Below, one piece after another: positions 5,292-14,820 of a stretch of 40,106 nucleotides of DNA. The stretch is from Oscillibacter sp. ER4. Its GTDB lineage: Bacteria; Bacillota; Clostridia; Oscillospirales; Oscillospiraceae. The stretch's first letter is position 1. Every line of letters starts with the position of its first letter. The stretch is from assembly GCF_000765235.1 (NCBI RefSeq), contig NZ_JPJG01000016.1, forward strand, positions 1-40,106, given 5' to 3'. Made by a program: the position numbers and the translations under genes. Below the pieces are notes generated by a model. That model was given only the letters and a program-made list of their open reading frames with translations. It searched no databases and had not been told where the DNA came from.

Positions 5292-5638
5292 GGGGGCGTA
5301 CCGGTTTCGACGGGGGTGTGGAGGCAGGATAAGCGGGCAGAGGCGCCTGGCCTCTATAAAACGGGTAACTTATAAATTAAAGAACAACAACGAAGTTGCT
5401 CTCGCTGCCTAAGTAGGCGGCCGTCTGAACCGGAGAGGCCACGGACCGGGGAAGGCGTCGTAAACGTGGCGTCCGTGAGGCGGGAAAGAGTTGACCTGCC
5501 CACGCATCATGACTCTACCAAAGCGTAAGGTCCGTCAGGTGTCCTTGCGCGGGGGGAATGTTTAAATCCTGACTGCGCCCGGAGAAAGTCCTGTTAAAGT
5601 GCTTTCGGACGCGGGTTCGACTCCCGCCGCCTCCACCA
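5292..5638 (+). ncRNA. ssrA: Transfer-messenger RNA (tmRNA)
   Basis: 347 nt. The 5' end GGGGGCG pairs with CGCCTCC before the discriminator A and an encoded CCA at 5636-5638, making a 7-bp acceptor stem. The TTCGACTCCCGCC segment near the 3' end is the T arm, and GTACCGGTTTCGACGG at 5297-5312 is the conserved tRNA-like 5' part. The mRNA-like frame ends at TAA 5410-5412 and encodes a proteolysis tag ending KNNNEVALAA, whose ALAA end is the normal ClpXP/ClpAP signal. The exact resume codon cannot be fixed by eye. smpB lies 0.6 kb upstream. The 3' end is a common integration site, and degraded foreign DNA starts right after it. Confidence 0.95.
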
Positions 5639-11589: not shown

Positions 11590-12170
11590 GGTCTCCTGCG
11601 CCGCGCAGGGGAGCGGTTAAGGGGGATATTCTCTCACGTGAGAGAATATCCCCCTTACACCCCCAAGAGAACGCAAGGGGCTCTGCCCCTTGACCCCGCC
11701 ATTGCAAGCGAGCAGCTCGAAGAGGTGCGATGCTTGCCGATTGCACTGCCCATAGCGCGGCGTTGCCGCGTTTAGAGCTGCAAGACGACTTGCCTCTGCT
11801 TCTACTATCCGCTGCCGCTCTGCCTGTCTCGTAGTAGTGCAGACTAATTTCCGTCTACCGGAGCACTCATCAATGCGGCGAGCGCAGCAATGCCGCGTTC
11901 CGCACGCAGTCTGCCGCCGAGGGAACGTCACTCGCGCCTCACGATAGTAAGGCGCGGTTGCGAGTTGCCACGGCTCGCAGAAGATTCATGGCGAAGCCAT
12001 GTACACTGCACCCGATTCCGCAGGCTGAGCAGTTCTTCAAGATCGAGACTGCCAATGTCGGGGGTTGAGAGGGACTCCCCTCGCGTTCTCTTGGGGGATC
12101 TAAAGAGGGCCATTCTCTCACGTGAGAGAATGGCCCCCTTTGTCCGCACCCTGCGGGTACGCAGGGAATA
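11590..12170. repeat. Noncoding palindrome-ended inverted-repeat element (MITE-like)
   Basis: About 580 bp with no credible gene. Its two ends are inverted copies of each other over more than 100 bp. Each end holds, from outside inwards, a GC-rich hairpin (near 11595-11612 and 12150-12168), a long palindrome centred on CTCTCACGTGAGAG (perfect over 40 bp at 11618-11657; perfect over 30 bp at 12107-12136), the block CCCCCAAGAGAACGC (11663-11677, inverted at 12080-12097), an AGGGG-rich stretch, and CATTG...GAAG. The middle is GC-rich and unstructured by eye. The architecture suggests a non-autonomous mobile element or a dispersed structured repeat. No transposase or clear target duplication is visible. 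Confidence 0.75.
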
Positions 12171-12206: not shown

Positions 12207-12235
12207 TTGACAAAATATGACGTTATCCATATAAT
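12207..12235 (+). promoter_or_regulatory. Consensus sigma-A promoter of the PRTase-codB operon
   Basis: TTGACA (12207-12212), a 17-bp spacer and TATAAT (12230-12235): both hexamers are perfect consensus, the best promoter in the window. Transcription should start near 12242, giving an mRNA that begins about 26 nt before the leader peptide. Confidence 0.92.
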
Positions 12236-12240
12236 GTCAT
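12217..12240. promoter_or_regulatory. Palindromic operator-like site over the -10 box
   Basis: ATGAC-g-TTAT-ccat-ATAA-t-GTCAT is a 24-bp inverted repeat with 9 of 10 positions paired per arm, covering the -10 element. A protein bound here would block RNA polymerase, so it is a plausible repressor site. The repressor is not identified. Confidence 0.5.
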
Positions 12241-12267
12241 AAGTTGAAAAAAGGGAGGCCACCTGCT

Positions 12268-12327
12268 ATGCTGCTGAAAAAACGCAACAAATGTCATTTC
12301 GCTTCCCTTTTTGTTTTTCATATTTAG
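12268..12327 (+). CDS. Leader peptide of the PRTase-codB operon (19 codons)
   Basis: ATG at 12268 follows GGGAGG at 12253-12258 with 9-bp spacing and opens MLLKKRNKCHFASLFVFHI, stop TAG 12325-12327. The second half of the frame is very U-rich in the RNA (12298-12325 includes CCCTTTTTGTTTTTCATATTT). The stop codon lies 6 nt before the 5' arm of an intrinsic terminator. A ribosome finishing this frame would cover that arm and prevent the terminator from folding. This is the layout of the enterobacterial pyrBI leader, where low UTP stalls polymerase in the U-rich part and lets the ribosome catch up. Function is inferred; no leader of this kind is known to me in this group. Confidence 0.65.
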   Translation: MLLKKRNKCHFASLFVFHI

Positions 12328-12333
12328 TATATG

Positions 12334-12370
12334 GACCATCTGTCGATTATTCGACAGGTGGTCTTTTTTT
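12334..12370 (+). terminator. Attenuator terminator before the PRTase gene
   Basis: GACCATCTGTCGA (12334-12346), loop TTAT, TCGACAGGTGGTC (12351-12363), then seven T (12364-12370). The 13-nt arms pair with one mismatch-type G-U/A position. It lies between promoter/leader peptide and the PRTase ribosome site (AGGAGGAG 12371-12378), so it must be bypassed for the operon to be expressed. CCACCTG in the leader ribosome-site region (12260-12266) can also pair with CAGGTGG in the 3' arm. Confidence 0.9.
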
Positions 12371-12384
12371 AGGAGGAGAGAGCG

Positions 12385-13482
12385 ATGATCGAAAATTGGA
12401 AGGACGTTCAGATCGTGCCGGAGTTCTGCGATCAGGGCGTGGACTGCTACCGGCTGGAGGGAGGGCACTTCCTCAACGAGTATTACATTGTCTCAGAAGC
12501 CGAGACGCGAAAGCTGATGAACCATCCGGAGGTGGTGGGCTACGAGGTGTACGCCTCGCTCGTGACGGCGACCTCGCAGATGATGTACTACCTGAAGGAG
12601 AAAAAGAAAATCACGTCGGCGAATATCCTCTCGATCCTGCGAGGAGCCTTGAACTACCCGCTGGAGGAGAGCTGCTACAAAGAGCACATCCGCGTCCACG
12701 ACATCAGCTTTATGTCGAGCGAGCGCGTTTTTGAAAACGGCGAGATGAGGGGCCTTGAGATCAAATACTGCAAGCTTGCCACCGTGCCGAACAGCACGCT
12801 GCTGATCGGCGACATCATCGCCTCCGGCGAGACGCTTGTGAACTGCCTGCGCTATGTGATCGACTATTACCGCAAGCAGGGGGCCAAGCTACGCAACATC
12901 GTGCTCTTCACGATCGGCGGCACGCAGGGCGTCGAGATCCTGGAAAAGCTGACGCAGGAGATCCGCATGTACTGGCCGGGCTTTGAGGGATTTGTCACGG
13001 TGTATTACGAGGGCATTTTCAGCTGCTATGAAGAGGGAAACAGGGGCGTTTCCGGTATCAACCGCGCGCTGATCGACTTCTACTGGAAAGGCGGCATCAT
13101 TGCCCCTGCCTTCCGTCGCGAGACGCTCTCGATGCAGAATCCCCTTTTTGAAAAGTGCACGATCTACGACGGCGGCGCCCGCCGCTACGAGATCCACGAG
13201 CATATTGAAGAGGTGCTCGAATTCTGGAACGGCATCTTAGAGCGCGCCGACAGCATCGACAAGCAAGCGCTGCTCGAGGAAAAGCTCGGGCATCCGCTGC
13301 CGATCTCCTACGAGGACTGGCTGAAGGACTGCCACTACGAAAAGCTGGACAAAAAGACGACGCGCTGGCTCTATCAGCAGGAGCGCGGCTTTGTGGAGGG
13401 CATGCGCGATGTCTCGCTGAAGGAGATCGCGCGCCAGCGGATCGATGAGTTCACCACGACCCTGAGAAAGTATATCCTTTAA
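12385..13482 (+). CDS. Phosphoribosyltransferase-like protein beside a CodB-type permease
   Basis: 365 residues. The segment TLLIGDIIASGETLVNC (residues 138-154) has the shape of a PRPP-binding motif of type I phosphoribosyltransferases (hydrophobic strand, then acidic residue, then a Ser/Thr-Gly-x-Thr loop), and ILSILRGALNYPLEESC (81-97) resembles the RGG loop that follows the first strand. The usual two acidic residues are reduced to one (GD rather than ED/DD). The last 150 residues match nothing I recognise. The gene is the first structural gene behind a promoter, leader peptide and terminator, and lies 30 bp ahead of a cytosine-permease-like gene. A role in pyrimidine or other nucleobase salvage is therefore likely. 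Exact substrate unknown. Confidence 0.6.
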   Translation: MIENWKDVQIVPEFCDQGVDCYRLEGGHFLNEYYIVSEAETRKLMNHPEVVGYEVYASLVTATSQMMYYLKEKKKITSANILSILRGALNYPLEESCYKEHIRVHDISFMSSERVFENGEMRGLEIKYCKLATVPNSTLLIGDIIASGETLVNCLRYVIDYYRKQGAKLRNIVLFTIGGTQGVEILEKLTQEIRMYWPGFEGFVTVYYEGIFSCYEEGNRGVSGINRALIDFYWKGGIIAPAFRRETLSMQNPLFEKCTIYDGGARRYEIHEHIEEVLEFWNGILERADSIDKQALLEEKLGHPLPISYEDWLKDCHYEKLDKKTTRWLYQQERGFVEGMRDVSLKEIARQRIDEFTTTLRKYIL

Positions 13483-13512
13483 AAAATTTATAGATCAGAG
13501 AGGACAGAACGC

Positions 13513-14751
13513 ATGAAGAATGAAAAGACGGTAGTGGATATTGACTACGCAGAGGCGATCGTGCCGAAAAGCGCCCGACGCGGCATCGTGACCATGTTTA
13601 TGATCATGCTGGGCTTCACCTTTTTCTCCGCGAGCATGTGGGTGGGACAGCAGTTGGCGGACGGCCTGGATTTTCAGGGCTTCGTCGTGTCGATGATCGT
13701 CGGCGGTGTGATCCTGAGCCTGTACACGGGACTTTTGGGTTATGTGGGCGCGGAGACGGGCATGAGCCTCGACCTTCTGGCCCGCAAGGCGTTTGGCGTC
13801 AAGGGTTCGTATCTGCCCTCGGCCATGATCTCGTTCACGCAGATCGGCTGGTTCGGCGTGGGCATAGCCATGTTTGCCATTCCGGTCGCCAACGAGCTGC
13901 TGGGCGGCAGCAAGACGGCGGAGTGGGCGCTGGTGATCGTTGCCGGTATCTGCATGACGGCCTCGGCCTACTTTGGCATCAAGTCGCTCACGATCGTCAG
14001 CTATATCGCCGTCCCGATGGTGGCGGTACTGGGTACGGTCGCGATGATCCTCGCCGTCATGCGCGGCGACGGCACGATCGTCGATCAGTTTGCCAAGTCC
14101 AGCGGCACGCTGACGGTGATCGGCGGCGCGGGACTGGTCGTTGGCTCGTTCGTCTCCGGCGGCACGGCGACGCCGAACTTCTCCCGCTTTGCCAAAAGCG
14201 GCAAGGTGGGCGCCATCACAACGGTGATCGCGTTCTTCATCGGCAACTCTCTGATGTTCTTCTTCGGCGGTGTCTCGTCGGTCTATGTGGGCGGCAACGA
14301 CATCTTCGAGGTGATGATCAACCTCGGCCTGTTCTATCTCGCCATCCTGGTCCTAGGCCTGAACATCTGGACGACGAACGACAACGCGCTCTATTCCGCG
14401 GGCCTCGGCCTTGCCAACATCTTCGGCCAGAAAAAGAAGCCCATGGTGCTTGTCTCCGGCATCATCGGCACGGTGCTCGCCGTCTGGCTGTACTGGAACT
14501 TCTGCGGCTGGCTGAACATCCTGAACTGCACGCTGCCGCCAGTGGGTATCATTCTGGTGCTCGGCTACTTCCTGAACAAGGAGAAATATCAGGACGTGGA
14601 GGTCAGCGAGACGGTCAACTGGTTCGCGGTGATCGGCGTGGTGCTCGGCGCGGTGGTAGCAAATCTGGTGCACTGGGGCATCGCCTCGATCAATGGCATG
14701 GTGGTCGCCGCGGTGTGCTACTTGATCGGCCGCGCGGTGGAGAAGAAGTAA
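13513..14751 (+). CDS. Cytosine/nucleobase permease, NCS1 family (CodB-like)
   Basis: 412 residues with about 12 hydrophobic segments. It starts with a cytoplasmic tail, then RRGIVTMFMIMLGFTFFSAS, the NCS1-type loop GLLGYVGAETGMSLDLLARK (matching the Gly-rich loop after helix 2), AFGVKGSYLPSAMISFTQIGWFGVGIAMF, and WTTNDNALYSAGLGLANIF in the helix 8 region. These features match the CodB subgroup of nucleobase:cation symporters, which import cytosine. It is 30 bp downstream of the phosphoribosyltransferase gene and shares its attenuated promoter. A strong terminator follows. Substrate could be another base such as a purine. Confidence 0.87.
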   Translation: MKNEKTVVDIDYAEAIVPKSARRGIVTMFMIMLGFTFFSASMWVGQQLADGLDFQGFVVSMIVGGVILSLYTGLLGYVGAETGMSLDLLARKAFGVKGSYLPSAMISFTQIGWFGVGIAMFAIPVANELLGGSKTAEWALVIVAGICMTASAYFGIKSLTIVSYIAVPMVAVLGTVAMILAVMRGDGTIVDQFAKSSGTLTVIGGAGLVVGSFVSGGTATPNFSRFAKSGKVGAITTVIAFFIGNSLMFFFGGVSSVYVGGNDIFEVMINLGLFYLAILVLGLNIWTTNDNALYSAGLGLANIFGQKKKPMVLVSGIIGTVLAVWLYWNFCGWLNILNCTLPPVGIILVLGYFLNKEKYQDVEVSETVNWFAVIGVVLGAVVANLVHWGIASINGMVVAAVCYLIGRAVEKK

Positions 14752-14784
14752 AAAAGCGTAATTTCCACCCCAAATAACAGAACA

Positions 14785-14820
14785 AAAGCCCATCAGCTCG
14801 TCGAGCTGATGGGCTTTTTC
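14785..14820 (+). terminator. Terminator of the PRTase-codB operon
   Basis: AAAGCCCATCAGCTC (14785-14799) pairs with GAGCTGATGGGCTTTT (14803-14818), loop GTC, followed by T residues. Perfect stem of about 15 bp; it can also serve the converging minus-strand operon. Confidence 0.9.

Follow-up and report, generated by a model that had tools for sequence, protein, structure and literature searches.

A candidate ribosome-gated attenuator with a self-closing leader ribosome site ahead of a phosphoribosyltransferase-like gene and codB in Oscillibacter sp. ER4

The leader region of Escherichia coli pyrBI combines a leader ORF, a U-rich tract and an intrinsic terminator, the ORF being longer than the one described below and extending through the terminator. 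PyrR-dependent attenuators, which act by way of the RNA-binding protein PyrR, also place pyrimidine genes of Bacillota under terminator control. In pyrBI, pausing is reported to couple the leader peptide (PMC4824070). In Bacillus subtilis, tlrB (yxjB) has a leader peptide and an intrinsic terminator, and the account of that terminator identifies no overlapping antiterminator; the timing of polymerase matters, leader translation is described as having to begin before completion of a hairpin that would also inhibit the leader, and the authors conclude that NusG-dependent pausing contributes to induction, inferring that the leader thereby gains time to be translated (PMC6851288). The vmlR leader, as reported, has a uORF within its first stem-loop, a terminator downstream and TTNTTT pausing (PMC9226507).

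The locus described here lies in a 40,106-nt stretch of Oscillibacter sp. ER4 DNA, the whole of which is called the window, and by analogy its closest logic appears to be that of tlrB and pyrBI. It runs, 5' to 3', from a promoter through a purine-rich ribosome site, a leader ORF, a terminator and another ribosome site to a gene for a 365-aa protein and codB (Table 1). The leader ORF, the U-rich tract of the window, the intrinsic terminator and the pyrimidine-related operon are shared with pyrBI; in contrast to pyrBI, a hairpin formed with the leader ORF is able to shut off the leader's ribosome site, the U tract is not conserved, the genes and the phylum differ, and the leader has 19 codons and ends before the stem. 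Whereas the signal in tlrB is tylosin stalling at RYR and the tlrB hairpin closes the site of the structural gene (as reported in PMC6851288), the present leaders have no conserved arrest motif and precede a nucleobase operon. The uORF of vmlR is a tripeptide with a single-stranded ribosome site, and an antiterminator was proposed there (PMC9226507), whereas none is supported here. Among titles and abstract openings on pyrimidine leader peptides, pyrBI-type control, codB or cytosine-permease attenuators and clostridial uORF attenuators, with most subscription journals outside the scope, a leader of this kind was undescribed. If true, a nucleobase operon under ribosome-gated attenuation would be out of the ordinary for a Clostridia-type bacterium, because pyrimidine genes there are usually controlled through PyrR. 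It would also be unusual because polymerase is reported to outrun ribosomes in B. subtilis (PMC9226507), a report that speaks against taking leader coupling for granted in the window's lineage.

Table 1. Features of the operon and its leader in the window.
Feature	Position	Strand	Details
Promoter, sigma-70-type	12207..12235	+	TTGACA-17-TATAAT; 12/12 consensus matches
P1 hairpin, 5' arm	12248..12259	+	Includes leader Shine-Dalgarno GGGAGG (12253-12258)
Leader ORF	12268..12327	+	MLLKKRNKCHFASLFVFHI, 19 codons followed by TAG; equivalents in L002, L003, L004, L011, L066, L068
P1 hairpin, 3' arm	12301..12312	+	Pyrimidine-rich anti-Shine-Dalgarno within leader ORF
U-rich run	12308..12325	+	Possible pause site for polymerase; TTNTTT matched once (TTGTTT, 12311-12316); run not kept in L002, L066, L068
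Intrinsic terminator	12333..12370	+	Stem-loop 12333-12364, T run 12364-12370
Ribosome site of first structural gene	12371..12384	+	AGGAGGAG, starting at 12371
Gene for 365-aa orphan protein	12385..13482	+	ATG at 12385; PRPP-loop-like motif (TLLIGDIIASGETL); codB next in 14/14 loci
codB, NCS1 cytosine permease	13513..14751	+	
Stem-loop after operon	14784..14818	.	Terminator-like on the minus strand; overlapping shorter one on the plus strand

The first-pass annotation had described the promoter, the 19-codon leader with its own GGGAGG, the stop beside the terminator and the structural ribosome site after the T tract, and all of these were confirmed at 12207-12385. Between 11500 and 15200, five sites score as promoter-like (shuffle mean 1.2), this promoter among them; the rest match at 9/12 positions. 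Promoters were scored by program in the window only, and transcription is expected to start near 12241-12243. TTGACA and TATAAT are also visible by eye upstream of the leader in L068. The leader stop of the window lies 5 nt before a 14-pair stem with an outer G-U pair, or 6 nt before its 13-bp core, the spacing that the first-pass annotation had given. The U-rich second half that had been noted was borne out as well, with 61% U in the second half of the stretch running from leader start to terminator stem. Upstream of the promoter, at 12107-12142, a long hairpin (GGGCCATTCTCTCACGTGAGAGAATGGCCC) followed by CCTTTG is perhaps the terminator of the upstream unit.

A peptide-pattern scan of 84,980 species genomes, of a kind that finds close relatives only, gave 11 loci; with L066 and L068, added by whole-genome searches, the total was 14 distinct loci including the window. 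Repeats of known loci (L001, which is the window by coordinates, L013, L044, L065 and L067) were not counted. The leader is present in 7 of the 14 (window, L002, L003, L011, L004, L066 and L068), and inspection of the upstream sequence by eye showed it to be absent from L005-L010 and L012, the contig of L005 holding only 159 nt upstream. Two changes account for this distribution on the protein tree; shuffles averaged 5.0, with 2/500 as low, and near-copies help this clustering. The row nearest the window is L002 (Agathobaculum butyriciproducens DSM 100391), the closest relative, with 88% identity in the phosphoribosyltransferase-like protein; L068 joins L003/L011 and L066 joins L004, these last two forks having modest support (84-87%).

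All seven leaders have an ORF of 18-24 codons behind a purine-rich site, an intrinsic terminator, and a stop that lies 1-8 nt before the terminator stem or inside it, as in L003. In body shuffles, such stop placement occurred with frequencies of 0.086, 0.108, 0.585, 0.114, 0.076, 0.302 and 0.105 for the window, L002, L003, L011, L004, L066 and L068, respectively; the product without the near-copy L003 is 2.6e-6, for a 12-nt limit that was set after inspection of the first five leaders. The peptide sequence is not kept, except that the start is followed by Leu in 6/7. Over the second leader half, the fraction of U is 0.61 in the window, 0.48 in L003, 0.50 in L011 and 0.39 in L004, and it falls to 0.29, 0.16 and 0.12 in L066, L002 and L068, which lack the U-rich tract though they retain leader ORF and terminator. 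TTNTTT occurs in two leaders, those of the window and L004. Comparison of the leader in relatives, which the first-pass annotation had suggested, thus showed a frame of similar length and a kept stop-terminator spacing but a U run lost in three of them. Relatives with the terminator and without the tract had been named there as refuting the proposal, and L002 is such a relative, so that the proposal fails as far as a conserved U tract is concerned. Much of the U tract in the window is complementary to the purine-rich ribosome site of the same leader, and this explains both the tract's pyrimidine-rich look and its replaceability by other sequences.

This layout is rare in control DNA. A control scan of both strands of 583,138 bases, with the repeat loci L001, L013 and L044 left out, gave 86 terminator-like sites, of which 19 lay directly ahead of an ORF; among those 19, a leader ORF ending at the terminator was found only in the window, L003 and L011, together with a doubtful 10-codon case in L042. 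The scan undercounts: the L002 and L004 terminators, with two or more mismatches in the stem, escaped it. In L007 (3890-3990), a terminator-like hairpin before the phosphoribosyltransferase-like gene lies directly behind a possible extended -10 promoter seen by eye, and the control scan found no leader ORF ahead of it. Similar short terminator-like hairpins (GGCAGGCGTTT(T)CGTCTGYC) precede a 191-codon ORF on the reverse strands of G604 and G610 (L041 and L027).

In all seven leaders, the Shine-Dalgarno/start region pairs with the second half of the leader. This hairpin, P1, was not part of the first-pass account and is able to close the leader ribosome site. Its helix sequences differ between lineages, to the point that the arms of the window (AAAAAGGGAGGC with GCTTCCCTTTTT) and of L066 (GAGGCAG and GTATGCTG with CTGTCTC and CAGCATAC) are wholly different. 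P1 is statistically supported across the leader set and is weak in the window alone under stricter controls. Against 500 body shuffles, p-values for the pairing were 0.044, 0.020, 0.008, 0.004, 0.010, 0.004 and 0.006 for the window, L002, L003, L011, L004, L066 and L068, respectively (Fisher without L003, 1.4e-7). The first five leaders were the basis for proposing P1; L066 and L068 came to light later. With synonymous recoding, a stricter null, the corresponding values were 0.174, 0.144, 0.024, 0.024, 0.106, 0.012 and 0.036; four of the seven are under 0.05, the window not among them, and the Fisher value without L003 is 5e-4. By folding energy alone, six leaders reached p under 0.05 and L066 had p 0.090. 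When leader bodies were swapped, the own body was best in 4/7 rows (p 0.010), the exceptions being the window, L002 and L068. The P1 of the window was not significant in whole-sequence shuffles (z -1.23, 35/300 as stable) or in an arm-to-arm duplex test (p 0.063 and 0.103), and a rougher measure of Shine-Dalgarno pairing, used previously on five leaders, gave for L002 a value that 61/300 shuffles reached. Ahead of the tail indel, six pairs of P1 differ between the close relatives L003 and L011; four of these remain paired and two do not.

We propose a ribosome-gated transcription attenuator with a self-closing leader ribosome site, set by a race between polymerase and ribosome, and give this reading about an even chance of being correct. 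Translation-coupled attenuation, as the first-pass annotation had it, is the best reading of a leader ORF, an adjoining or internal stop and a terminator in 7/7 leaders, together with an E. coli construct in which moving the stop from 28 to 5 bp before the terminator is reported to have lowered termination from ~90% to under 10% (PMC4824070). A ribosome translating the 19-codon leader would end 5-6 nt before the terminator and stop its hairpin from folding, and with the terminator blocked polymerase would continue into the phosphoribosyltransferase-like gene and codB. The second half of the leader, once transcribed, would pair with the leader Shine-Dalgarno and start, and with P1 closed no ribosome would load and the terminator would form. 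Because P1 would shut the leader once its 3' arm is made, the switch would amount to a race of ribosome loading against polymerase, in which a slow or paused polymerase would leave the leader site open longer and turn the operon on.

The nature of the slow-down may be read from the bases that polymerase has to add. For a polymerase footprint of 14 nt, the closing arm of the window, with the 14 nt that have to be added before it emerges from polymerase, amounts to 26 nt, of which 16 are U and 5 are C; a shortage of pyrimidine nucleotides would therefore be the likeliest cause; NusG pausing at TTGTTT would perhaps add to it in the window. Polymerase adds 54 nt, including 22 U, between clearance of the Shine-Dalgarno and clearance of the closing arm. 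By the same geometry, a polymerase in the U run of the window would still hold part of the P1 3' arm, so the leader would stay open. Counted over the closing arm and the 14 nt, five leaders have U as their commonest base, but A takes its place in L002 and C in L068. With other bases dominating in these two, one nucleotide is not the common signal; the signal may be pyrimidines in a broad sense, the speed of polymerase in general, or one that depends on the species. We infer, then, that the leader is translated, that the race takes place and that it answers to such a signal. The seven leaders make up a natural test set, with one plan, different sequences, and members with and without a U tract.

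The UTP sensor proposed in the first-pass annotation would work as in classic pyrBI: low UTP would cause a pause in the U tract, the ribosome would catch up and block the terminator, and P1 would be a pause hairpin or unimportant. The order of parts is the same, the tract is present in the window, L003 and L011 and less so in L004, and P1 followed by nearby U-rich DNA resembles a hairpin pause; however, the pause tract is not conserved, and the rows that keep leader ORF and terminator without it are spread over the tree beside tract-bearing ones. We consider this account unlikely. Quite unlikely, in our judgment, is a ribosome-state or antibiotic-responsive leader of the vmlR/tlrB kind, in which slowed or stalled leader ribosomes would block the terminator. 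The parts are similar in the reported B. subtilis leaders (PMC9226507, PMC6851288), and R/K-X-R/K, a motif named in the second of these reports, was seen by eye in the leaders of the window, L002 and L068; but it is missing in L003, L011, L004 and L066, it lies in the window at codons 4-8, distant from the terminator, and no resistance genes follow downstream.

Chance could also be at work, with a fixed partial terminator, a chance ORF and a chance hairpin, given that a purine-rich ribosome site pairs readily with any pyrimidine tract. Three controls give weak results for the window by itself, good pairing is frequent with swapped bodies and half of the loci have no leader, but ORF, stop placement and P1 agree in 7/7 leaders and such layouts are rare in the control scan, and we hold a coincidence of this sort to be quite unlikely as well. 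Least probable of the alternatives, in our estimate, is a trans-acting protein that would bind P1 and set the switch, perhaps the phosphoribosyltransferase-like protein itself. The first operon gene looks phosphoribosyltransferase-like, and PyrR is both a uracil phosphoribosyltransferase and the pyr operon regulator (NF003548 description). The helix of P1 is kept, but no sequence or loop common to the seven leaders was seen by eye, the PyrR-loop core is absent, and the RF00515 score of 20.3 bits against a cut-off of 54 reflects a two-hairpin resemblance. RF00515 is weak as a negative, nothing having been found with it in G603, which has a PyrR gene (NF003548). A terminator-like hairpin stands before that gene (L019, reverse strand), yet G603 shows no RF00515 element genome-wide, and the model may be weak for such lineages.

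A PyrR attenuator was rejected. In agreement with the first-pass annotation, which had found no PyrR-binding loop, the core of that loop is absent from 12241-12385; a leader ORF is present, and no PyrR occurs among the seven PF00156 hits in G000 (98% complete), namely hpt, upp, xpt, comF (below its cut-off), a ribose-phosphate diphosphokinase, purF and an adenine-phosphoribosyltransferase-type protein. An antiterminator formed by the 3' half of the leader with the terminator was rejected in five leaders (p 0.96, 0.82, 0.59, 0.64 and 0.74); one formed by the leader 5' arm was suggestive in five leaders (p 0.07-0.28) and not with seven (Fisher 0.34). Pairing of the leader 3' half with the ribosome site of the structural gene (p 0.14-0.56) was likewise discarded, as were an amino-acid attenuator, the seven peptides sharing by eye no run of one codon kind, and a riboswitch, there being by eye no conserved unpaired core and no Rfam match of the leader at cut-off.

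As for the operon itself, which had been described as phosphoribosyltransferase-codB, codB is securely identified (NF008241 for cytosine permease; 424.2 bits, above the cut-off of 326), while the name of the first gene rests on a motif. The 365-aa protein has no match in NCBIfam and none in Pfam at E 0.001; its resemblance to Pfam PRTase-CE was weak (E 0.0064; 16.8 bits, cut-off 27), and PF24390 gave a weak match in 7/12 rows at E up to 10. I-G-D-I-I-A-S-G-x-T is invariant in 12 aligned rows. In hhalign, the motif falls on the loops of upp and PyrR at a probability under 1%, pyrE aligned elsewhere than the motif (0.3%), and the unrelated hutI scores 0.2%. The AlphaFold model (pLDDT 60) gave no PDB match at E 0.001 and no usable Foldseek matches, and a PDB search by sequence returned no match with the single protein at E 1 or with the profile at E 10.

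G000 already has upp. NF006685 (PRK09230.1), which we take to be cytosine deaminase, was not found at E 1e-10 in any of the 12 carrier genomes searched (G000, G603-G611, G1126 and G1494), the genomes of L009 and L010 being left out. G000 is 98% and G1494 77% complete, and most of the other ten are MAGs by title. Among the control genomes, 4/14 matched, including E. coli, one of the four over the cut-off; a genome without NF006685 is thus no rarity, 10/14 controls lacking a match, and the search covers this family and not yeast-type deaminases. PF07969 was set aside as a probe for being too broad. A cytosine permease without the NF006685 deaminase, beside a phosphoribosyltransferase-like protein, is the picture expected of a cytosine phosphoribosyltransferase pathway. 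That the gene encodes the missing enzyme (cytosine + PRPP -> CMP), always paired with codB and under a pyrimidine-sensing race leader in the window and its neighbours, is in our view unlikely; the guess rests on the PRPP-loop motif and names a candidate, not a finding. The operon offers a testable candidate for an enzyme described as not known in any organism (PMC8842674, PMC8497467), and as a phrase, cytosine phosphoribosyltransferase was found among 5.39 million open papers only in these two. The PF00156 hits of G000 include no orotate phosphoribosyltransferase, whereas one was seen by eye in G603 (L040); pyrE may be missing from G000 or may fall in the 2% not covered. If pyrE is truly absent, the cell would depend on pyrimidine salvage.

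In all 14 loci, codB lies downstream of the phosphoribosyltransferase-like gene, truncated at the edge of the contig in L003 and L012. The gene pair was found in none of 17 other congeners, 0/199 relatives sampled from the family, none of 390 other members sampled from the class and 0/397 from the phylum, samples that overlap in part; the order sample had it in 2/393 others, one being the genome of L002 again. Among relatives of carrier genomes, it occurred in 0/59 others for G610, 0/79 for G603 and 1/199 for G605, and a plasmid search gave no match. Carrier records are titled Bacillota, Clostridia and Spirochaetales, and the distribution is hence rare and patchy. In the window (12385-14751) and its 13 relatives, the two genes are always paired in otherwise different surroundings, across two phyla, and the pair seems to move as a unit. 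Elsewhere in the window, a tmRNA gene lies at 5292-5638 (RF00023, 144.9 bits).
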